From the NCBI RefSeq assembly GCF_032854445.1, contig NC_088301.1, positions 48,851,116 to 48,915,115 on the forward strand: DNA of 64,000 nucleotides, given 5' to 3'. This document shows positions 13,190-50,370 of this stretch, piece by piece. Position numbers and translations under genes: made by a program. Numbering within the stretch: position 1 is the first letter of the stretch; the number at the start of each line of letters is the position of its first letter. The notes beneath the pieces were generated by a model. The model was not told the origin of the DNA. It saw only the letters and a program-made list of their open reading frames with translations, and made no database searches. The stretch comes from Liolophura sinensis (taxonomy: Eukaryota; Mollusca; Polyplacophora; Chitonida; Chitonidae).

Positions 13190-15010
13190 AGAATCTCATC
13201 ACACCCCATGAAATGTCACGTCACACTCCATGAAATGTCACGTCACACCCCCATGAAATGTCACGTAACACCCCCATGAAATGTCACATAACACCCCCAT
13301 GAAATGTCACATCAAACCCTCCATACAATGCCATATCACACCTCCATGAAATGCCACATCACACTCCCATGAAATGCCACATCACACTCCCATGAAATGT
13401 CACATCACACCCCATGAAACGTTATATCACACCCCATGAAATGTCACATCACACCCCATGAAATGTCACATCTCACCCCCATGAAATGTCACATCTCACC
13501 CCCATGAAATGTCACGTCACACACCCCATGAAATGTTACATCACACACCCATGAAATGTCACATCACACTCCCATGAAATGTTACATCACACCCCATGAA
13601 ATGCCAGAGCACACCACCATGAAATGTCACATCACACTCCATGAAATGCCACATCAATCCCTAGATACAATGCCATATCACACCCCCATGAAATGTCACA
13701 TCACAGCCCATGAAATGTCATATTACACCCGCATAAAATGTCATGTCACACACCCCATGAAATGTCACATTACACCCCATGAAATGTCATGTCACACCCC
13801 CATGAAATGCCACATCACACCCCAGGAAATGCCACGTCATACACCCCAGGAAATGTCACGTCACACCCCATGAAATGTCACATCACACCTCCATGAAATG
13901 TCACATCACACCCCCATGAAATGTCACATCACATTCCCATGAAATGCCACATCACACTCCCATACAATGCCACATCACACCCCAGGAAATGTCTCGTCAC
14001 ACCCCCATGAAATGTCACATCACACTCCCATACAATGTCACATCACACCCCATGAAACGTTATATCACACCCCATGAAATGTCACATCACACCCCATGAA
14101 ATGTCACATCTCACCCCCATGAAATGTCACGTCACACACCCCATGAAATGTTACATCACACACCCAAGAAATGTCACATCACACTCCCATGAAATGTTAC
14201 ATCACACCCCATGAAATGCCAGAGCACACCACCATGAAATGTCACATCACACTCCATGAAATGCCACATCAATCCCTAGATACAATGCCATATCACACCC
14301 CCATGAAATGTCACATCACAGCCCATGAAATGTCATATTACACCCGCATAAAATGTCATGTCACACACCCCATGAAATGTCACATTACACCCCATGAAAT
14401 GTCATGTCACACCCCCATGAAATGCCACATCACACCCCAGGAAATGCCACGTCATACACCCCAGGAAATGTCACGTCACACCCCATGAAATGTCACATCA
14501 CACCTCCATGAAATGTCACATCACACCCCCATGAAATGTCACATCACATTCCCATGAAATGCCACATCACACTCCCATACAATGCCACATCACACCCCAG
14601 GAAATGTCTCGTCACACCCCCATGAAATGTCACATCACACTCCCATACAATGCCACATCACACTCTCATACAATGCCACATCACACCCCAATGAAATGCC
14701 ACATCACACTCCCATGAAATGCCACATCACACCCCCATGAAATGCCCATGACATTCATGTCATATCACACCCCATGACATGCATGTCATATCAGACCCCA
14801 TGAAATATCACGATCACAACCCATGAAATGCCATATCACACCCCATGACATTCACGTCACATTACACCCATGCCATTCATGTCATATTACACCCCATGAC
14901 ATTCATGTCACATCACACCAATGACATTCATGTCAAATAAAACGACATGAAATGTCATATCACACCCCGAGAAATGTCATATCACAGCCCATGAAATGTC
15001 ATGACACATC
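13190..15010. repeat. Minisatellite, about 24-bp unit, with a 0.6-kb higher-order duplication
   Basis: About 75 tandem units of the type CCCATGAAATGTCACATCACA with substitutions (ACATCACAC, ACGTCACAC, ATACAATGCC, AGGAAATG). A block of about 640 bases beginning near 13403 is repeated almost exactly from about 14040; over most of it the offset is 615 bases. The left copy has one extra unit near 13480. From about 14735 the unit changes to CATGACATTCATGTCATATCACACC, which contains the near-palindrome TGACATTCATGTCA. It lies between the stop of DENND3 and the start of the SLC37-like gene. Confidence 0.97.
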
Positions 15011-16519: not shown

Positions 16520-19500
16520 TCAGCAAGCTTCTTCCTCAACCTGTGGCATCATGTCTGCCATGTTGCCATTTTCCTCTGGAGACTGACCTAAACTTGACAA
16601 CGTCTCAGAAAGAGGACTTTCTGACTCTGTGGAAGGTGACACAGGTTTCTCTGATTCAGATGCCCGCCAAATTGCTATTTTTCCGTCACGACTTCCTGCG
16701 CCCGTGATAACATAACGGCTCTGAGCACAGCACATTGAGCGCACAGCATCTTCATGGCCCTGCAGGGTTTTGTCCACTTTGTTTGTGTCAGTGTTCACAA
16801 TAACAATTGTACCATTCTTAGTTGCCACCCAAACCTAAAAAAACACAAAACACAAAAAAATACAGCATCCCTTGTTACCATCCAATCCTAAAGCACAAAA
16901 AGTATAGCATTCCTGGTGGCCACCCAATTCTAAAACACAACAAGAGTTCAGGTGAACACAGCATACGCCTCAACAAATGCATTTGTTTTAAATGTATAAA
17001 AGAACACTAGCAGCATTGTGGTAAGCACAACCCCTGAGGCGAATCTTCATGGATCTTGATGATGGGTCTTGATGATAGGTATGTAGTTACCATGACAACC
17101 ACACAAGTGGACAAATGTCTCCGCCAAAAATGAAAACTTTATGCCGAAAACCGTTGGAGTTGTAGCCCAGACAGGAAATCATGTCTATTTATATAGTATT
17201 TATAAGGAAAATGGCTATGAAGTTACTATGACAACTGCGGAAATGAACAAATGTAAGTTGCGACACACTGCCACCCGTGTGTCTATGTATCCAGCAAAAC
17301 TTAAAACTCTATGTGGAAAACTTCTGTAGCCCGGATACGAAATCATATCTATTTATATAGTACATATAAGGAAAATAGCTATCTGGTTACCATGACAACT
17401 GCGGAAATGGACAAATGTGAGTCGTGACACATCGTCACCTGTGTATCTATGTATTCACCAAAAATTTTAACCTTTTGTGAAAAGCAACTGGAGAAATTGC
17501 TTGACAGAAATACGGGCAGACAGACAGACAGAGTCGCTATAACATAATACGCTCTGCCTAATGGCGGGTGTGAATCAGAAGTATAGCACCCATGGTTGCC
17601 ACCCAATCCTAAAACACAAAACACACAAAGCATAGCATCCTTTGTTCCCACTGACATCAAAATCAGAAGAATACAATAAAAACAGAGCATGTTCCATTCA
17701 AGCTTCAACACAAAAGCACAATTTAAACATCAATCACTCCCATTCTTTGTTGCTATATAAAACACAAAAGCACAACTTTGACATTAATCACATCTGGATC
17801 CAGAAATTTTGAATAAATGATAAGATATTACTTTTGTAAACTGGTCATTATATAAATCTAATGATTCAATCTGGCATATAGCATTATGTTGAGTCACTGA
17901 ATTTTGCTTTACTAATTAGTTATAAAAGGTGTGGGGAGTTCACTCTGAAAGATAAAAACCTTCATATGTAATCAGCAGTTTGTAATATGCACTTAGCAGA
18001 AATAGAGGTGAAACATTAAACTCACCTTGTTGTCCACCTGTACCATTTTGCTGATGCCTCGACAGTCCTCAAAGTCAAACGTCTGAATGATATTCTCACT
18101 ATCTGGATCCCAAACAAGAACCTGCCCTTTTCTGCTGCACCCAGCCATTATCTACAAATTTACACCATACCACCAATTTTAAATCACAATGTACAAAAAC
18201 GAAATTCCAAAATAAAATAAAGCCCTGAATGTGTATACACTGTTCCTTGTTTAACAATGTTTAGCCCTGTTCAAGTTTTAAGATCACAAGAATACAAACA
18301 TAACAATAATATAATGACCAGTGTCAAATCTAATGAAGAAGCACTAAATATTAATACAACAGTGCGCAGGACTTACCTTACAGTTAACAATATATATGTA
18401 CCATACATAACTCACAATGAGAATAAGTGTCAACAGGAAACTATTCTTTAGAAATCTTTATATATCTGTCATTTTTGGAACAAGGTCAATATACTGCTTT
18501 TCTGACAATGTATTTTGGCAGAACTAGCAATTTGAACACATGAACATCACAGCATTTAAAAGTATATTATCTACATTTTTGCTCAAAAAACATTTTTAGA
18601 AGCAAAATACTTAGCCATGGGCAACATTTTAGGTCAAACACACATTATTTATTAAAGACAATAGCCTACATCACTTCTGGATGATGTAGCAATTTCTGGC
18701 ATGCCATGAACTTAAGTACATGTGAAAATGAAAGTGTATGAATAAGTTTGTTTCTATAAAGTTTAAATCAAACACTCACACCTTCATAGCACAATCTACC
18801 TTCTATGAACATACCTCTCCTGTTGGCTGGATCAGAAAACAATCTAATATGATTGGATGTCCTGTCTTGTCGCTGTATGTAAGTTTTTTCATGATTGTTC
18901 CATCATCTGCTAGCTGGCATATATCTCTCTTTGTACCTGGAAGACAAATTGCTATAACCTTATTAACTCAATATATACTTGTTTATAAAGAATTCATAAT
19001 TTTGTAAAGAAAATTTTAAATGTGGATAATTGGATAAAGACTTGGATATAAATAAAAAAGAAAGTAAAGCTTAACAGCTTACAATTTATGCATGTATATG
19101 CAATGTACAAATAAACAAATAATGATGGCATCCAATAATGTTCCGTGGTGTTCAAGGATGGACAAAGAAGTAACTACATTTAAATAACACTTACCCTAAT
19201 TCCTCAACCATTTCGCATGTGAAACAATAACTTTAAGTGCAATTTACGCACATTTTTAATTTGAATTTGGAGACAAAAATACATTGGTTGGATTCAGGGC
19301 TTCACAAAAAGTATAATGTTATCAGCTGACAAAGAACAATATCTTCAGAATATGACTGAACAAACACCTTGCAAACATGAGAAAAGGTTGTCGAATTATA
19401 GTAACAACTGCAACTGTCATATGTGTAGCCATGGAAACCCTAGAAATATTGGAATTGTTCAATTCTAATGTTTAAATCTTTGTATTGAATTTAATTTTGC

Positions 19501-25500: not shown

Positions 25501-28500
25501 GAAAAATACAATTACAGAAGTGTACAATTAAGAGGATGTTCCTATTACATTGTAAGACTTCCGAAATTTTATTTTTGGTCATGTCTTCTGTAACAGCGTC
25601 ATACCTGGTACATACTAGCTGCATTGATTTATCACTTGGCTACATTTCAGCGAGAGCGCCTCTATGTATTTGATTGACTGATGTTTATGACAGGACACTT
25701 CTGGTACAAGTTCAGAACTAAGAATATTACAGCCTACTCTTTAGGGAAGATCCTGGCAGTGCTAGAGATGAGTTGGAAGCAGTCGTCTATGGCATCCACA
25801 GGTCTCCCATCCAGCACCCTGAACATCGCCCGTAGATAGAGGTAAGGTGCTCGTTGGATCACATCACGACATTCCTATGGCATGAAGATGACACAACTCT
25901 TAAGCCTTGATCAATCTGTCCCCAAGTTTTGCTTTTACAGAATAGGCTTTTTGTTTGTTTTTGCTGGGTTCAACATTTCTTAAGTCAGATTACTATTATG
26001 ATATTCTGTACAAAAAGTAAGCCAGTCTGCCCAATGCCGACAAGTTTATTGTGATGCCTCACTAGAATGCTATGCTGAAGACCGGACATCCAACCCAGTC
26101 ACAGAAACTTGATACCAGCATTTTCAGTTATTCAATTCAAACCAATCCTCTTATCTTCCAGGACATAGTATATTAGCATAGTAAATGTGGTCACATCTCT
26201 ACAATTCATGCACTCCGAAATTTTATTTACACTGATTAACTCACATACTTGCTAGGGCTACCACACACATTTACATTTTCCAACTAGTCTCGGATTTAGT
26301 CTCAAGTTAGTTTACATTGTCTTACATGGACAGTTCTGTTAAGCTGATGCAGGCACATCTGAAGATAGGCTCCAAACTCTGTAAGGGTGGGCAGGAAAAA
26401 CCGGACAAACTCCACTGTTATATGAGGGGTCAATATGGCTGGGGTGGAAGCTCGTTTGATTGGCCTAGGCCCTGTTGACATTGATGTTCTACTTCGTCTG
26501 CAGTAACATAATAAAAGTGTTACACAATTACAACTCATCATAATTTTCAAAGCTTGTTATTTATTTGCCTAAAGGATTTTCTCTATTCTCTAAAGGATTT
26601 TCTATATTATGCACCACTGGCTATTACACCCTTTGAAAAAGCCTACACATAAAGTACTAAAAAAAAATACTAATTACAAATGTCTCTCAACATAACAAAG
26701 TAATGTTTAACCAATCAAATAAATAACTAAAGTAATGTTTAGAAATGAGACGACCAGTTTTCTGGGGTTATGCGTTTTCAAGACACAGTTTTTATGTCCT
26801 TTATGACTTCTGAATTGCATCTTCAATGGTAAGGAATAGTTGATACTCACTGGCCGGGTCTACCATACATCCTCGTTGCGATCTCAAGCTCTGACCAATA
26901 ATCTCTCTTTTCATTCAAACGTTCTTGAACAAATTTCTTGAACATGTCTGTCTTAATCACCTGCAAATAAGCACCAACATCCTGCAGAATTGACTCATAT
27001 TCCACTTTTGCTTTTTCGGAAGACATGATAACCAAATTCCCTGATTAAACTATTCAATGTCACAAATTTACCCACTGAACTAAAACCAGTTTTCTCTTGA
27101 TTTTTCAGTGTGACACACTACATGTATGTAGGCCTATACACAGTAACATACATACCACATACATATTATGTATATACAGTAAAATACATTACACTTTCCT
27201 ATCTTTCAGCTATTTAACCTTTACTATTTTACTTGTTTTCAGTCATCTGACAGTGTACAAACCCGCTCATAAAATGGTCGGTCTGCAGAAGATTGAATCT
27301 GGAGGAAGTGATCTTTGTTAAACTTCTTCAAGTCCACTCTCATTTCAGTTATCACACCTCTGCAAAGGTAAATACAAATAACTGGTTTAATGAATTTAGG
27401 CATTTTGAACCACACTGTGGAAAACACTACAACTATTCCCTCTTGATAGGGTCAACCTCTAAAGAAACAAAGTGCACAAAATCCATTCATAAGTATGTGC
27501 AAAACTTAAAGTTTTGTTCATTCATCTATATAAAACAATATCTTGCTAACCTTTAGTTAAATACACCACTTCATTGTAAAATTAATGCTTTTTGTAAAGT
27601 AAAAATGACTCATATCAGAAAATCACTCATATGCTTGACTGACATGACCCTGTGTAAAAAGACACTTGATCAAGAACAACCATTTTACCTGAATAGACTG
27701 ACCATCAAGGCCAGTGCATTGAAGATAATCTCTCGATTGAACTCCCGAATCTTTTTCTCTCTAAATCTTTGGTATTCTCTGATATCACAGTATGAAGGCC
27801 TGAAAAAATTATCACCATTGCATTTCTTCCAAAGGCATATCATATGTAATGCAGAGACATCACATTTCTACAAGAGAATCTAAGGTACACAGAAAGTAAT
27901 CTTTCATTCATACATGTACATCCATATAATGTCACATTTGACAACTTTCATTTTCAAAGGCGGAGTAACATACAAGTCTAATTCAATACTACTTATAGTT
28001 CCTTCAAATATCCATAAAATTTTGCACTCAAATGATCCTGACCGAAAGTTATAAATGTTCCAAATACCTGGAAAATTCCATGAGATCAAAGGTGAACTTA
28101 ATCCTTTCACATGCATTCCTGAAAGGGTCCGAGGCAATCTTGGGCAGATTTAACATGGCCTCTCTCTCCACATCATTGTCTATGGTTTGATTCACTGTCA
28201 CCCTGCCTTGGTCAATGTCTACCATCACAAGCCCATCTATCTGTGCAGGCAAATAAATGTTTCACTAACTTTCCAGTTTACATGATTAATACTATTTGAT
28301 CAAACTTGTTTATGGTCTCTCTGTATGTGTGCATCTGTCAATTATTCACTGGTTTCTTGATAGCCATGTGCCAAAGAACAATGTCTCTTTTTGTGCAACT
28401 AATAGTATCTTTTTTTTGGAACAAATGCACTTTTCATGAAAAATATTTAACAGAGGGCCTAAGTGAAATGCTAATCCTCACCCATGACCAAGTCAAGGTT

Positions 28501-40200: not shown

Positions 40201-42392
40201 TGTGGGTATTATCAGGCATGGTTCTGTTCATCTTACCTTCCCATGTTATCTTTTAGCTCATCTGCCACGTCTGCAGAAAAGTGAAATGCCTGGACGTGTG
40301 CAGTCTGAGCAGAAGAGCAGCGCTCTGGTTATGCAGACTGCAATACTGTTGTTAGGCTGTTCACAAGTAGTTTACTTTCTAACTGATTTTTAACGTGATT
40401 TTTGGTTGGACATTAATTCTCATATGCATACATATTTCTTTATCAGGTTTGTCTAAAACTGAAGAACATGCTTCAGAACAGAACAGAGGTGCTCCCTCAT
40501 GGATGAATTGGATTTTAGTGACCATTGGGTACCACGACGAAAGAAGTCCAAAGGAGTCTGACACATCTTCTGATCGACACTACTGGTCTGACTGTTTCTG
40601 GACCATATATAGTGCTGTGATCAACAGCATAACTTTATTGCTCAATTTCCTCTTTATACCTGTAGCATATGTCATCACAGCTTTTCGTTCCATTTTGGCA
40701 TCATTATACTACACTGTAATACAAGCAGGTAATCTGCTATTCATTGTGCTTTTACTGATAGTGCTAGGCGCGACAGGCTTTCTCATTTATTTCAAATGGA
40801 AAAGCTCCAGTAGACAATACACTAGCGTTACAAGTCGACTTCAAGTGTCTAAACAACGGACTCGCACCTACCAGTCCACTCTGCATCATCACTATGGCTG
40901 GTTTGTGAAGGCTGCTGCATGGATCATAATTGCTGCTGCACTGCTTAGTATTCCATGGGAATTCATTCGCCTGTACCAGAAAGAACAAGCCAAAAGAGCT
41001 GCATTGGTGTATGCTGTAAGTTTTTGTTGGCATGTGATCTTTAGTATTATTTGTTGAAGGCACAAGCTGTGTAAGGTGTAAAATATTAATTATAAGAGGC
41101 TGCAGTCCATATAATTATTTACATGTATTTTTTTATTAGTATATTAAAATATTTCACTCATACGACAGCAACCAGTAATATGGTGGGAGGAAACTGAGAA
41201 GAACCTGGGGGAAACCCAAAACCATCTGCAGGCTGAAAAGTCCATATACATGTGGATTGAATCTAGCTTTTAAATTTTTGTTTTTAATTATACCAGGTAC
41301 CACTAGTGTCGTCAGTGTTGTGAAAAGTTAATGGCTAAAGATAAATATTTTACACTAGTTGCTGAGCAGAGACATTTTTTAATGCCAAAATTGTCTGCTA
41401 ACAAATAATATTTGAAGAAATGTATTTATATATATGTTCAACTATGTTTAAAACATGAACTGTATCCATATATAGGGACTCCCTCCAGACTGTGATCCCT
41501 ACAAGCTGACAGTATGGCAAACCATAAAGACCAGCTTTCTGTGGCACTTTTCTTGGACAGACCATAACCACTGTGAAAAGTATTACCATGCAGTACTTGT
41601 GGACCCCTTATGGGAGGTTACCCCAATGGTGGTGAGTATCTTGTGGGCTAAATGAGCAAAAGTGAGCTGGAAGAATTCTTTCTGAAATCACTTATTTATT
41701 TATTTGATTGGTGTTTTATGCCATATTCCAGAATATTTCACTTATACAACGTATACGCCAGCATTATGGTGATTTATTGAAAGAGCAAGTCTAAATTCAG
41801 TCTATGTTCCAGTATGTATGTATAAGTTTTTTCATACGCATGTAAAAATTGTTCAGTTTTTTGAGCAGGTTTGTCTGATATTGGATATTGGGGTTTGTCT
41901 CCTGTTTGCTTTTCTTCTCCTTCTAACTTAGCTGTGACGGAAATGATAACAATTGTAATAATTTTAAACCACATTTTTGTTTGTAGGCTTTTTTTTTTTT
42001 TTTTTTTCATATTTTGAATTTTTTACTTTCAGGTGCTGTCTTCTGCTCTGGCCAGGTGTGTTCTCCATCCATTGGAAATGATTAGTAATTCCTTGGGACG
42101 GAGTGTTAAGCTGTTTTTCTCTCAGATTCCAAGCCAGTGGCAACCTATTTTTATTGTGGTCATATTGCTCAGTTTCCTGACAATTTTACTAATGACATGT
42201 AGGTATAGAATAAAAATGCCAATGTTCTTACTGATTGAGCCACGCACACCGACAGGTAATTCTGTTCAGTGCAGACGCAAGTATATAAAAAAAGTACCAT
42301 CATACAACCAGGTGACGGAAGAGGAAAATGACCACCTTATAGCAGAAAAACCAAAACAAAGGAACAGAAAACAAAGAGTAGAAAAAATGTGA
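37292..42392 (+). CDS. CLCC1-like: CLCC1-like ER chloride-channel protein (CLIC-like 1)
   Basis: Exons 37292-37394, 40447-41015, 41476-41631 and 42033-42392 join in phase to 395 residues; an optional exon at 39408-39488 would make 422. Human CLCC1 is a multi-pass ER membrane protein linked to chloride conductance and ER homeostasis. Signal peptide: hydrophobic IYLVILLFLTYIAG (residues 6-19). Membrane segments at about 90-114, 131-150, 188-204 and 312-333. Family match is in the third and fourth exons: PPDCDPYKLTVWQTIKTSFL, WTDHNHCEKYYHAVLVDPLW and the following P-rich helix HPLEMISNSLG. These parallel human CLCC1 [20 protein letters not shown] and LLLVNPIWLVPP. The lumenal part is shorter than in the human protein and the C-tail is basic (KQRNRKQRVEKM). 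Start: ATG with G at +4 directly before the signal peptide; an in-frame upstream ATG (37196) would bury it. Confidence 0.75.
39408..39488 (+). CDS. Candidate additional exon of the CLCC1-like gene
   Basis: A TTTTTTCAG acceptor, 81 open bases and a GTACAG donor, phase 1 at both ends, exactly matching the phase 1 junction between coding exons 1 and 2. It would add EPRTDRFEWSVVEKVESF and RKWMLKFV, a charged, tryptophan-bearing segment suited to the lumenal domain. The GTACAG donor is only moderate and I see no direct family match, so it may be alternative or false. Confidence 0.45.
41135..41250 (-). mobile_element. SINE-like copy in a CLCC1-like intron
   Basis: Matches the dispersed family: AATATTTCACTCATACGAC, AATATGGTGGGAGGAAACTG, GGGGGAAACCCAAAACCATC, TGCAGGCTG. 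Truncated at the right end before the tRNA-like part. Confidence 0.65.
41690..41775 (-). mobile_element. SINE-like tail fragment
   Basis: TTATTTATTTATTTGATTGG, TGTTTTATGCCATATTCCAG, AATATTTCACTTATACAACG, CCAGCATTATGGTG. It is one of the cleaner tail copies, in the intron between the third and fourth CLCC1-like exons. Confidence 0.65.
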
Positions 42393-42899: not shown

Positions 42900-44235
42900 T
42901 GAAGGAACCGTATGACCTCAGTTTCCTCCACCGTGGCACCTCACATTGGTCATGAACACAGCTAGGACGTTTGTAAGGGACAGTGTGGTGCCATATAGGC
43001 ACTGGCCAGTTTCTTCCACCCAGGTACCTGATCTTGGTCTTGAACACAGCTGGAAAGTTTGTAAGAGACGGTGTTGTGCAATATAGGCTCTGTCATATGC
43101 CCTGTATCCAAATGTGTGATCTTGGTCATGAACACCCCTGGGAAGTTTGTAAAAAACTGTGGTGCTGTAATGGCTGTGGCCAATTTCCTCCACTCACGTA
43201 TCTGATCTTGGTCATGAACAGGGCTGGAAAGTTTATAGGAAACAATGTTGTGCCATATAGGCTCGGTGCAGTTTCCTGTATCCCAGAACCTGATTTTGGT
43301 CTTGAACACAGCTGGAAAGTTTGTAAGGGACAGTGTTGTCATATAGGCTCAGTCCAGTTTCCTATATCCAAGTACCTGGCCTTGGTCTTTAGCACAACTG
43401 GAAAGTTCGCATGAGACAGTGTTGTGCCATATATACAGTGTCCAGTTTCCTCCACTCATGTACCTGATCTTGGTCTTGAACAAAGCCGGGGTGTTTGTAA
43501 GAGACAACTTTGTGCCATATAGGCTCTGGCCAATTTCATCCATCCAGGTACCTGATCTTGATCTTGAACACAGCTGGAAAGTTTGTAAGAGACAATTTTG
43601 TACCATACAGGCTCTGGCCAATTTAATCCATCCAGGTACCTGATCTTGGCCTTGAACACAGCTGGAAATTTTGTAAGAGATGGTGTTGTGCCATGTAATC
43701 TCTGTGCAGTGTCCTGTGTCCAAGTACCTGATCTTGGTCATGAACACAGCTGGGAAGTTTGTAAGAGATTGTGGTGCTATATAGGCTGTAGTCAATTTCC
43801 TCCACTCAGTTATCTGATCTTGGTCATGAACAGGGCTGGAAAGTTTATAGGAAACTGTTGTAATTTAGGCTGTGTCCAGTTTCCTGTTTCCAATTACCTC
43901 ACCTTGGTCTTGAACACAGCTGGAAAGTTACAGATACAGTGTTGTGCCATATATGCGCAGTGCAGTTTCCTCCACCCAGGTACCTGATCATGGTCTTTAA
44001 CACAGCTGGAAAGTTTGCACGAGGCAGTGTAGTGTCATGTAAGCTCTGACCAGTTTCCTGTATCCAAGCGTCTGATCTTGGTCTTGAACACAGCTGTAAA
44101 GTTTGCACGAGGCAGTGTTGTGTCGTATAGGCTCTGTCCAGTTTCCTCTATCCAAGTGTCTGATCTTGGTCTTGAACACAGCTGTAAAGTTTGTACGAGG
44201 CAGTGTTGTGCCATTTAGGCACTCTCCAGTTTCAC
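42900..44235. repeat. Tandem repeat, about 87-bp unit, about 15 copies
   Basis: Units of the form GTACCTGATCTTGGTCTTGA, ACACAGCTGGAAAGTTTGTA, AGAGACAGTGTTGTGCCATA, TAGGCTCTGGCCAGTTTCCT. The ATCTTGGTC core recurs about every 87 bases from 42945 to 44163. Units diverge by 10-20 percent. Because 87 is divisible by three and the unit has few stops, it generates overlapping ORFs of up to 148 codons on both strands. Confidence 0.96.
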
Positions 44236-44312
44236 AAATGAAACATCCTATTCAGACCTAGCCCTGACCGACGTTCTGTGCATAGCTAAATATATGGCAC
44301 CTTCCTAAATAA

Positions 44313-44482
44313 AAATTGTGGCCAAATAGTTGCCTTCCACAAAATATTAGCCTCAACTATGCACATATTAACGCTCAAAATCGGTAATAGGTGAAATCTC
44401 CTAAAACATAAAAAGCTGTAGGCTAATGTGTGCATAGACACGGCGAATATTTTGTGAGAGGTAGTTATTTGGACAATTCTAA
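44313..44482. mobile_element. Palindromic MITE-like element
   Basis: The left arm (44313-44375, ATTGTGGCCAAATAGTTGCC then TTCCACAAAATATTAGCC) is the inverted counterpart of the right arm (44420-44482, GGCGAATATTTTGTGAGAGG then TAGTTATTTGGACAATT). The similarity continues inward through CTATGCACA(T/C)ATTA. The loop is about 45 bases. No internal ORF, as expected for a non-autonomous element. Confidence 0.65.
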
Positions 44483-44591
44483 AATAATAGCAAAATTCTG
44501 TTTTGCAATGATCGATTTTTGCCGGCAATCTCCGGTATATCTTCTTTAACACTGTAAGGCGCTCGTGATATGAAGACACCATGCAATGAAC

Positions 44592-44705
44592 ATGCCAGAG
44601 GCTGAACGTTGTAACTATGGGTTACGTAACAATACGTTGGCGCTGGCAACGTCGAAAAGAGACGTCGACATTAATGCTCCAACACCAGAGATACTGTACA
44701 TCTAG
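44592..44705 (+). other. Upstream ORF before the unknown small gene
   Basis: A 38-codon ORF (MPEAERCNYGLRNN...EILYI) ends 47 bases before the ATG of the four-exon gene. If transcription starts upstream of 44592 it would be a uORF; it could also be chance. Confidence 0.3.
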
Positions 44706-44752
44706 TGGCACTGACTCCGGGGAATACGTGGTTGCTTGTCGATCTGGCCAAA

Positions 44753-46749
44753 ATGAGTTTCAGGTTCCTAAGTTCGCATCACAGAGACAAATATAAAGAT
44801 GGTGCAAATGCAGGTAGGCCTATATATGTCAGCTCTTCATGACTAGCCTTTATTTTATAAGTGGATTCGTAAACCTATATTGTATAGTCCTAAATAAGTT
44901 ACTTTCAGCAGTGGAACTGCATGCATCATCAGTCTGTTTAGAATAAATGAATACCTGTCATTTAACATATACGTAAATACCGTGCATGCATCCCAATACT
45001 AATAGTGGCAATTATTATATTTAATTATCTACATAGACTCTAGATGAATACAGTCATTTGTGTCCGATTTGATCAAACTATATATATATATGTTTATACG
45101 CCTACAGTTATGTAATTTGGTAATTCGATAAAGGAAAAATGTGTCTACTTTGTTGCAGAGTCTGCGAAAAGTGAAAGAAAAGTTCAGAAATCATTCGTTG
45201 GCAAAAAGCTGGAGAAAATTTCGCGATTTGTCAGAGAAGGTACATAGCGGTCAAACTGTACAACGTTTTATTATTTATTTATTTATTTATGTATTTATGT
45301 ATTTCAGTTTTTCGATTTTCATGTTCTTTTTTACCACAGTTAGATTTAATTGGTGGAGGAAATCGGTGTGCCCGTAATAATCCACTGCTTTGCATCAGAT
45401 ATCGGACAAACCTAGACTGAAATTAAAGAGACGCAAAATTGTTGATGATTTGCTCATTTGTTAGGCAAGTCATGCAGCTTTAAGATATAGACATAACACC
45501 TTGATTCATTCTTGGCCATGGCTGTCAGGTTTACGCCAGGAAATCGTATCTCCGCTGTCAGCCAATCAGCGTCGATTCTGTATACATTTTGGCGCAGCCG
45601 AACAAGTGAGCTTTCCACCTCATTGGTTTATTTATTTTTTGATTGGCCAAGAATATTTCATTTATAGGACGACTACCATCACTATCATGGGAGGAAACCG
45701 AGTAAACCCACGTCCATTCGCAGGTTACTGGAAGACCTTTCTATGCACGGCTACAAGGGAAAGAACTTTTGGCGGCTGAACCAGCTTTGGCTCTTGAAGC
45801 AAATGTCATTAGTCAGATTTAGTCTTATATATACAGCCATTACTATATGTCAGCGCATGTATGTCCCTTGTGTAATACAAGCATATATATGCAAATCAGG
45901 TAAGTCTTGTGCACTGAGTTTACGGTGCCTCCCTGCATATATATAGATATCGTTATTTGTAACGTTATAGTTAAGAAATAAATGTTCGCCCTTTGTATCA
46001 GTGTTATGCTTCAGTAAAATGCAACATGTGTATTATATGTTTGTTTTTTCTTCTATGTATTCAGTATATACTGCGCCAGCTGACTTTCGACGACAACATA
46101 CCGGTACTAGTACCCAGAAACGTTACGAAGTCGCCGATTCTTACAAGACTTGTGCAAAAAGCGACACTGAAGTGGTATATCCTGTATTTATTTATTTATT
46201 TATTTATTTATTTATTTTTTGCTAACTTACTCCAGTGCGGGTCATTGAAAATGTGACAATTCACACTTTTTGTATCATGATTATTAAGGTAACGTCATGT
46301 CTTTGTACAAATGACCCAAAAATGCTTAAATTCAAATTGACAGTATACAACGATCATATCAAAAGACTTATCATTCTCAGAAACATATATGCGTGTACAT
46401 GTGAATTAATGTTTTTAACGATACAATATTTGTCCCAGTTATAAGTATATACACCTTTCACGTCCAGTTTCATTAAATCTTGCTACACAACACATAACGT
46501 ATTTATATACTCGTATAATATTAAATTATGACAAACTTTTTGCAGGATCCAAAGATGACAAGGAGCACTCTTGAACAAGGACCAGCACCTTTGCAGACAA
46601 ACTCCGCTGGAGCCTTGGACAAGGTCAAGGTCAAGGTCATTAACGTCCGTCCCGCTCCAGTAGACGCCACCATCGGTGATTTGGGAGATTTCGGAGACTC
46701 GAAAAAGGATGTTGGTGACAAAATTACAAAGGCTGGCTCTTTCAGTTGA
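44753..46749 (+). CDS. Small four-exon gene, 151-residue soluble protein of unknown family
   Basis: Exons 44753-44813, 45159-45239, 46065-46174 and 46546-46749 join with consistent phases (1, 1, 0) and GT/AG sites, and a poly(A) signal follows 47 bases after the stop. I do not recognise the product. It has no signal peptide or membrane segment. The N-terminal half is strongly basic (HHRDKYKDGANAESAKSERK, KSFVGKKLEKISRFV). The middle carries TAPADFRRQHTGTSTQKRYE. The C-terminal half contains a beta-like KVKVKVINVRPAPV followed by an acidic Gly-Asp stretch (IGDLGDFGDSKKDVGD). One cysteine. Start: first ATG, context AAAATGA. It sits alone between an 87-bp repeat array and a gene-poor stretch. 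A fast-evolving or lineage-restricted protein is the likeliest reading. Confidence 0.65.
45623..45790 (-). mobile_element. SINE-like copy in an intron of the unknown small gene
   Basis: TTTATTTATTTTTTGATTGG, AATATTTCATTTATAGGACG, ATGGGAGGAAACCGAGTAAA, CCCACGTCCATTCGCAGGTT, ACTGGAAGACCTTTCTATGC: the same order of blocks as the other copies. Confidence 0.65.
46180..46216. repeat. (TTTA)n microsatellite
   Basis: About eight TTTA units immediately after the donor of the third exon of the small gene. A second short TTTA run lies at 45272-45304, also just after a donor (exon 2). Confidence 0.9.
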
Positions 46750-46795
46750 ATGTATTATATCCATCTTATTTACCTATGTGGCTGCAAAAACGTAA

Positions 46796-46801
46796 AATAA
46801 A
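46796..46801 (+). terminator. Poly(A) signal of the unknown small gene
   Basis: AATAAA 47 bases after the stop codon, a normal spacing for a short 3' UTR. Confidence 0.55.
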
Positions 46802-48939
46802 CTATATTAATAGGTAACATACGTTGTCCTGTGTTGAAACGATTCCTATGACTTGGTTGGTAGTTAATCGTTCCAACACGCAGAGATGCAAGAACTATTA
46901 CTAGGCCTACCAAGTGCTTGTAGAGGAGTAAACCACAGTTACATCAACTGCCGCTAGGCCAAGGTATTCCATCACGACACACACTTTGAAGGAAATGTTG
47001 AAAGACACAAATTCTTCCTAAAACTCCGTGTTTAGCTGTATATTCTCGTCACCCTCATGTTAACTGGATAGCAATAAACAGACAAACACAAACACAGAAA
47101 GCAGCGCGTAATGATATTCCTTTACTGTAAGTGGCTTAACTTTTAGATGAAGTATAATTCTGCGGGTTCTGAGTAAATATATAATCCTTGTGCGTCATTT
47201 TTGTATATATGATTCAGGTTTAACACACGGGTTTATAGGACTGCATATGCATTGTGTTGAATGAAATAGCCAAATTCAATAAGTGAAAGGATGCAATCAG
47301 AGTGGAACAAATTCTAAACGAGCATAGTAGGGCTACATACAAGATCTGGACACTGAACAAACCGACGTTTGCATATATGAGAAGGGGCGGGAGGAGCTAT
47401 ATTCAGTGTATATTACTTTATCCCTTTTTCCCGAATTCCTAACGCTTCCATCCAGTTTGACTTTCGTTGTTAACCGTTACGAACTTTCGATTTATACCGA
47501 CATTCTGTCTGAAGTTGCTGAAACATATATATTGTCCCGAAAGCTCTCAGGTTACTGTAATGTATTATGCCTGTTTAGATGACTGGCAAACACCGCGTAT
47601 CTTGGACAATGGTATATAATGTGCATGTCGTCATCAATGTTTTAATATACCCTTGTGGATCAGTTAGATCACAGGACTGACTACATGTAAAGTTACAAAA
47701 CTTTGTTACCTACATATACCTAGAACAATCTAAGTATAATCAAAGAAAAAATTAATTAAAGACGCTACGTCCACAGTTTGGTTGCTGGAATTCGATTTCC
47801 CCAGAAGATAACAAAATGAAACGGTTTATATATAGTGTTGAATAAAACGTGCTGACTTCAAGTACGACAGTTGGTCGCGCTCTGTAAAGCATGCAAGAAC
47901 AGTGACCATCGGGCTACAAGTACAGCCAGATGACCTCGCGCAAGAACATCTAAACATATTATACCGTATATGCCTTCTCATTCAAAATACTGTTAAATAG
48001 TGACTCCGTCCTTGATTGAGACACGTTTGTATTTTTCAAAATATAGGTATGACATTCATACACTTGCCGCCGTTTCTTCTATCCATTACAACCTTTTGAT
48101 ACCACCGTTGGTGTATATATGTGCATGGGGCCTATAGAAATGTGAGAGTCTTACAAAGCTGTTACATGCAAGGTCAATCAAAGACATCAAAATTTGTATG
48201 ACGAAATTATAGTGCCTAGCTAAACTAAACATGGTTAATGAATGGTGTGTATATGGTTAACTTCCCCGAGTTGTTATGTTCCCTAAAAACGTCAGATTGA
48301 GCCTATACGTAATTTACTTGTAGGCCTATATATAGGGGCCTATATCAGGGGCCTGTACTTACAAGTAGGTGTCAATATGTATATAGTACATACAGAATTT
48401 CATGCCTTACATATACATTGTGCACCTAATGCATTAAGGTGTGCCTATATATAACCTTGATCAGCTGATGTGATAAGGATATACAGGCATAATAGGCTTA
48501 TGCGCCAAACAATGATGTGGCTTCAAGTTCATGTGACTAAAATATCTTTAAAGATATCGCTAAACTTCAAACAAACAAAATTCAGACGACGAAATAATTT
48601 CATAAAGTGTAGTAAATTCATACTGATTCATTGCATGCATGCAGGCTTGGACACAAGGTCTCGATGTGTGCTTCAGAAGGACCTTGCAGGTATAACTCAT
48701 AGATGTCGAAATGATGAAATACTGTATCGTATTTTTTATTGACTCTGTTGGACTGTATTGTCTGATTCTTATATTTTCCAAAGCGAGAAACATTATTTTT
48801 GGCTGATTAATGTGTCATTACCAATAGTGTGAGAGTCTTTAACACTGCTCAAAGGCGAGATTATTTTAAAGCCAAGGGCTTATATTTTTTCCTGACATCG
48901 ACGACACAAGGAACTAGGTAATATGTAGTGGGCCTTGCA
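46802..48939. other. Intergenic, no gene seen
   Basis: No recognisable coding exon on either strand; the ORFs are short and isolated. The right end runs into the likely promoter of the C1-domain gene. Confidence 0.5.
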
Positions 48940-49053
48940 GACTAGTTGAAATTTGGCGCGGACTAGGTAACTCTTCACTACGGTTGGGAAAGGAGGTACG
49001 AAAGTGTACATGTGGCGGAAGCTGTTGAGCGATCATTGTACAAAGAGGGATCG
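48940..49053 (+). other. Possible non-coding first exon of the C1-domain gene
   Basis: A slightly GC-richer patch (TTGGCGCGGACTAGG, GTGGCGGAAGCTGTTGAGCG) ends in GGGATCG followed by a strong donor GTGAGT at 49054. It has no ORF leading into the donor, and the coding exon downstream starts with an acceptor, so a 5' UTR exon is expected about here. Start not determined. Confidence 0.35.
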
Positions 49054-50370
49054 GTGAGTATACTTCAGTTCTACTCTCTTTTGTCGCTTAATGAGTCTGC
49101 CATTTACATGTGTTTAGTGGTTTTGAACTTTTAAATCCATGTGCGGTAACGGGGGTCGGGGGATATTCAGCATGTACAATTTCTACCAGGATGTATGAAC
49201 CATGTCATAACTTCAGATTGTCGGGCAGGATTTGTGTTTTTCTTTGCCACATGGTAGTTCCACGGTACGACAGTAGTGTCGTGCAACAGTTTGATTTTTT
49301 CCCGGTATGGAAAATGAGTCATCCTCGCGACAACGTGTTTCTGCTGATGTTGAGAAAGATGTGCTTCTTGTATTGGTGGAAAGTAGAATATGGTATCAAA
49401 CTTGTTCAATGTTGTCACGTTGAACCCTTTCGACACGTCGTTACCAGCATTTCATTGGTGACAGATCTTTCAGAGGATGTCTATGACATTTTAATTATTT
49501 ACCTTTGCGTCTTAAGGTCTTCAGTTTGATACATTTTAATTGGCACCAGATTGATTTGTAATGGGAAATGAAATGATCAGAGACAGGAATAAGCAGTTGT
49601 AAATGACCGTATAGGAGAAGATGAATTTAGTTCCTGTTTTAAAATTCAGTTTTGTTTCCTGCTTGAACTCATTCACTTATATACTAAATGAGTTTGAAGG
49701 AAAAATGACTGAATTGTTACATGTGACCAGTCTGTAGCCAGAAATATATGGACCCCTATGTGTTCCGCATAAATATAGAGCGTTATCATGTGATGCTAAG
49801 GGTTACATAAATATAAATTGGTGATACCTACAGTGGGTTACCATGGAAAATATTCCTTCATACTCCTACAGCAGACTTCTTCCCTATGTTTTCTGAATGA
49901 CCGCCATAAAGCAGTGCTGCTTTGAATAATAGGATGAGCATATAGCAGTCTTAAGTAGAATTCATAACTTGGCGAAAAAAAAAAAACAAGTGTGTAGTGT
50001 ATACTAAACAGTATCTTATCTATGTGCATAATGCATCTGTTGATCTGTTACTGATTTTAGTTTTGGGGACTGTATCTTTAGATTTGTACAGTTAGATAAG
50101 CTTTTTCTTGTGGATGAAATTTATATGTATAACTGTTTCCTAATCTTACCGATTAATATTATAGGTGGTGAAGTGTTGATATAAAATGTGTTGACCAGCT
50201 CAAGTTTATTTCATAATAACATTTTATGTGAATATCTTAAAAAATCTGTTAAAATTGTGGTGAGGATGCCTAAGACCTTTATTATATGTACTTCATCCTG
50301 TGATCAAGAGCATATATATTTCCTTTCAGGAGCTGTATGGGGTGAGAATCTGTCAGCCACACTCCCAGCA

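Follow-up and report, generated by a model that had tools for sequence, protein, structure and literature searches.

We propose that a small gene probably lies on the plus strand of a 64-kb stretch of Liolophura sinensis DNA (the whole stretch analysed, referred to as the window), since the codon signal of its open chain rises above that of the non-coding open chains of the neighbourhood and is strongest in exons 4 and 2 (Table 1). The explanation that we favour, to which we give an even chance as a whole, is a small and truly protein-coding gene in which exon 2 and the terminal exon 46546-46749 would be read in the frame of a four-exon model, with a middle part that may be spliced otherwise or alternatively; the four-exon model itself is one of several possible structures. 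The product would be a small, soluble and basic protein, largely disordered and devoid of membrane segments, and its one likely structured element, a putative basic amphipathic helix at residues 32-49, may serve to dock it on a partner protein or on an acidic surface. The gene would be expressed in particular tissues and not as a housekeeping gene; this is proposed because the locus keeps its CpGs and the surroundings have largely lost theirs.

Anatomy of the four-exon model

The first-pass annotation had described four exons in a consistent frame, and its coordinates, GT-AG borders and product length were all reproduced: once joined, the exons form a single continuous frame of 151 residues, and an in-frame stop at 44672 lies upstream of the initial ATG. 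The poly(A) signal that it had called well placed was likewise found at 47 nt 3' of the stop codon, with a GT-rich stretch beyond it (by eye). AATAAA occurs 85 times on the plus strand of the 64 kb, so that by simple arithmetic the chance of meeting one within 47 nt is about 6%. The splice sites, announced as canonical, are so in having GT-AG at all borders, but not in the strength of every donor. With generic animal matrices compiled from general knowledge, the three acceptors stand at 5.6, 3.8 and 3.1 bits; the donors give 6.2, 1.2 and -1.3 bits, the third being weak, and GT sites equalling the third donor are found at a density of 10.9 per kb. The donor-like site at 45900 is one of two this strong on the plus strand of the window, and the minus strand has none. 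The segment preceding it (45725-45898) showed no coding signal when set against local null segments. A second ATG, in another frame, is present inside exon 1 at 44799.

Table 1. Exons of the four-exon model, rival exons and associated signals (positions in the window)
Feature	Position	Strand	Details
Exon 1	44753-44813	+	ATG 44753; donor CAG/gtaggc, 6.2 bits
Exon 2	45159-45239	+	open in the frame of the four-exon model and in a second frame
Exon 3	46065-46174	+	open in two frames; weak donor GTG/gtatat, -1.3 bits
Exon 4, terminal	46546-46749	+	TGA 46747-46749; exon with the best support
Poly(A) signal AATAAA	46796-46801	+	47 nt past the TGA
Donor-like site CAG/gtaagt	45900-45905	+	8.68 bits, strongest of the region; not used by the four-exon model
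Rival internal exon	45465-45605	+	acceptor 2.4 bits; donor CAA/gtgagc, 4.0 bits
Rival terminal exon	45724-45822	+	stop 45820-45822; acceptor 5.1 bits; AATAAA at 45977
111-residue chain	44799-44813, 45159-45239, 45465-45605, 45724-45822	+	best chain with at most three introns; second frame of exon 2

Coding signal and chance tests

A first codon score, for which the whole, CpG-poor window served as reference, gave misleading results on the CpG-rich block and was superseded by a score with a local background. Codon usage was learned from 450 codons of the two plus-strand neighbours (set A), from 516 codons of nine minus-strand segments (set B) or from both (A+B). Set B had been chosen by an earlier coding score, and among the seven of its nine segments that were scanned against Pfam one gave a clear match (WD40), two gave weak matches (dDENN, E = 0.015; MFS_1, E = 0.044) and four gave none. 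As the training sets are small and the null segments overlap one another, the coding figures are indicative only.

On the local CpG-rich background, the four-exon chain scores 15.1, 17.0 and 19.6 bits with sets A, B and A+B, respectively, and is matched by 36, 0 and 1 of 20,000 null chains assembled from open segments of nearby non-exon sequence. Null segments as high as exon 4 number 5, 0 and 0 of 209 (A, B and A+B, here and below), and those as high as exon 2 number 23, 44 and 26 of 1595 in the frame of the four-exon model and 38, 146 and 67 of 1495 in the second frame. The signal is weak in exon 3 (121, 86 and 87 of 857) and in exon 1 (726, 339 and 360 of 2407). Exon 1 is surpassed by another frame running over it at 44617-44793 (0, 19 and 2 of 281), inside which no donor exceeds the threshold and for which Pfam gave no match. 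The initial reading of the locus as a coding gene is partly supported: the codon signal of the four-exon chain is above the local null, but rival exon chains equal or exceed it.

Shuffling the dinucleotides exon by exon, with the exon borders fixed, leaves the joined frame open in 24 of 20,000 cases; for exon 4 taken alone, an equally long open frame in the same phase appears in 2,200 of 20,000 exon shuffles. When 44600-47000 was shuffled 100 times, the longest chains of at most four exons had 131 and 123 residues under the two splice settings used, short of the 151 of the model, and both the chain length and the total score of the four-exon model lie above all 100 region shuffles. In the real sequence, 151 residues are reached by 9 of the 52 strand-windows of 2.4 kb (10 of 52 without the total-score limit), and 31 of the 88 strand-windows of 2.8 kb, which overlap and span the whole window, equal the total score of the model, both counts taking in the candidate's own region and recognised genes.

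Genomic neighbourhood

From 44 to 50 kb, the observed/expected CpG ratio per kb is 0.73, 0.96, 0.93, 0.97, 0.69 and 0.70, against 0.34 for the window; this 6-kb block (44001-50000), situated between two plus-strand genes, retains its CpGs. Smaller CpG-rich spots occur at 11-12 kb (0.92) and 37-38 kb (0.61). In mosaically methylated genomes, intergenic DNA would be expected to keep its CpGs, as we infer from PMC4378273, and on that basis the CpG-rich block would be unmethylated in the germ line, whether it is plain intergenic DNA or holds a gene that is not ubiquitously expressed.

The upstream plus-strand gene ends at about 42.4 kb. Three of its segments, once joined, match the MCLC/CLCC1 family PF05934 (E = 1.4e-5; 24.5 bits, the curated cut-off being 25); the match takes in residues 176-254 of the joined sequence, within the second and third segments, and neither 40383-41057 nor 42018-42392 alone gave a PF05934 match. 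This gene is called CLCC1-like here, a name supported as far as this match just under the cut-off. The downstream plus-strand gene, from 50427, carries a C1 domain (PF00130, E = 2.4e-7); in the PDB it best matches chains of protein kinase C (E = 3.1e-9), with RASSF5/Nore1 C1 domains at 6.5e-4 and 1e-3, and it may belong to the RASSF family. The likeness to MCLC/CLCC1 proteins belongs to the upstream neighbour and that to C1-domain proteins to the downstream one, both of which are genes separate from the candidate.

Several other features were observed in the window. The AT skew in 2-kb bins is positive in all bins up to 36 kb and negative in most bins beyond, as if the left genes lay on the minus strand and the right genes on the plus strand, with the CpG-rich spot at 37 kb as a possible shared promoter. 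On the minus strand, 16526-16834 and 26850-27041 matched WD40 and, weakly, dDENN (E = 0.015, below its cut-off), which together suggest a putative DENND3-like gene. A long minisatellite with a 23-bp unit in about 79 copies and a strong skew of C over G occupies 13197-15001. A tandem repeat at 42946-44233, made of about 15 diverged copies of an 88-bp unit, lies between the candidate and the CLCC1-like gene and is crossed on both strands by long open frames, which are probably spurious. Just upstream of the candidate, 44319-44475 forms an imperfect inverted repeat with two 52-nt arms (77% complementary), possibly a MITE. At about 45507-45654, a cluster of CCAAT/ATTGG boxes and an inverted ATTCTTGGCCA, spotted by eye and considered as an intronic promoter or a MITE, was rejected: a pattern search returned the right-hand site exactly and one site with three mismatches elsewhere, which is within chance.

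Rival structures and explanations

The four-exon model is not confirmed as the single structure of the locus. With permissive thresholds, 44400-47200 admits 1,149 chains that run from a start to a stop through two to five exons, and the model ranks 138th among them on the first, CpG-confounded score. It is somewhat unlikely, in our estimate, that the gene is real and built otherwise, running from exon 2 to 45465-45605 and then 45724-45822 (111 residues, start at 44799), or passing through a 26-nt micro-exon at 45340-45365 to end either with these two exons (135 residues) or with exon 4 (170 residues), exon 3 then being intronic or alternative. On the local background, the 111-residue chain scores 36.4 against 21.6 for the four-exon model (best-chain controls: shuffle maximum 15.3, n = 100; opposite strand 13.4), and when five models competed in 500 bootstrap rounds over the training codons, the 170-residue chain, which shares exons 1, 2 and 4 with the four-exon model and has other sequence in place of exon 3, won 203, the 135-residue chain 183, the 111-residue chain 100, the four-exon model 14 and the fifth model none. 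Against the local null, rival chains were equalled by 0, 109 and 5 and by 1, 1 and 0 of 20,000. The lead of the 111-residue chain is reversed under set B (14.3 against 23.5 for the four-exon model), its codon score dropping from 24.0 to 1.9 bits. The signal of 45465-45605 is similarly training-dependent, with null segments as high numbering 0, 85 and 29 of 466 (A, B and A+B); for 45724-45819 they number 2, 19 and 8 of 1091. Moreover, the 135- and 170-residue chains need the micro-exon, and micro-exons of 26 nt are unusual. Neither the 111-residue nor the 135-residue product has a Pfam match at E<=10, and the PDB returned no hit for the former.

The candidate could also be no gene but a set of chance open frames in an intergenic block that is poor in stops, retains its CpGs and is flanked by two methylated genes. 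Such a block would account for the crowding of a short region with overlapping open frames and possible chains, and for the several local frames that score as coding, some of them unrelated to the four-exon model; CpG retention is also what PMC4378273 leads us to expect of intergenic DNA under mosaic methylation. We consider this unlikely, given that the codon signal of the four-exon chain exceeds the local null and that neither its length nor its total score is attained in any of the 100 shuffles. Very improbable is the case of dual coding, in which exons 2 and 3 of one spliced transcript would be read in two overlapping frames to yield unrelated proteins of 151 residues and of 72 residues, the latter basic and starting at ATG 44799. 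The two exons are indeed open in a second phase-consistent frame, which runs from this ATG to a stop four codons into exon 4, and both frames are open together in only 10 of 20,000 shuffles. However, the second-frame chain carries little coding signal (7.9, -0.5 and 5.0 bits with A, B and A+B), the helical moment of its product is ordinary (reached by 413 of 2,000 shuffles) and the product has no significant match in Pfam, where only PF07553 appeared (E = 0.077, below its cut-off), or in the PDB (best E = 1.8).

Predicted protein

For the small plus-strand gene favoured here, the statement that the 151-residue product belongs to no known family is borne out in the collections searched: Pfam gave no family up to E = 10, the PDB gave nothing significant (best E = 0.17, a designed pore) and in one scan of viral contigs eight pattern stretches came up, none of them confirmed as a relative. 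We put the PDB hits to the designed pore and to EspB (E = 0.17-0.55) down to chance. The 95-residue read-through of exon 3 matched PF07553 at E = 0.14, and Pfam gave no match for the exon-4 product taken from an internal Met, for a 114-residue rival or for two 5' frames. At gathering thresholds, Rfam gave no match over the whole window.

The charge segregation reported at first, with a basic first half and an acidic end, turned out to be within chance: the net charge is +9 over residues 1-75, 0 over residues 76-151 and -2 over the last 30 residues, and 4,980 of 20,000 charge shuffles are equally lopsided. Residues 32-49 (SFVGKKLEKISRFVREVY) have a helical moment of 0.64, reached by 44 of 2,000 shuffles, and could form a basic amphipathic helix. 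The 151-residue product lacks a membrane segment (top 19-residue hydropathy of 0.51); disorder-promoting residues make up 67% of the chain, and its charge-hydropathy value (0.408 against a boundary of 0.435) falls on the unfolded side. AlphaFold2, run on exon 4 alone and with no alignment, predicted a chain mostly in coil, its single helix being at exon-4 residues 52-63, at low confidence (mean pLDDT 67, pTM 0.21). A KVKVKV strand, also proposed by the first-pass annotation, was not confirmed by this prediction, in which helix is the only structured element and whose low confidence makes it no refutation.

The candidate resembles the taxonomically restricted (orphan) genes of animals in being short, largely disordered by prediction and devoid of a Pfam-A match at E<=10 or a significant PDB match; its transcription and its restriction to a lineage, the latter suggested by the first-pass annotation, are putative. 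The locus would thus be an ordinary orphan-gene candidate and nothing beyond. It also carries a lesson of method, namely that a CpG-retaining, stop-poor block yields several convincing spliced frames, between which only transcripts or relatives can decide. If real, the gene would be one further small animal gene without recognised relatives.
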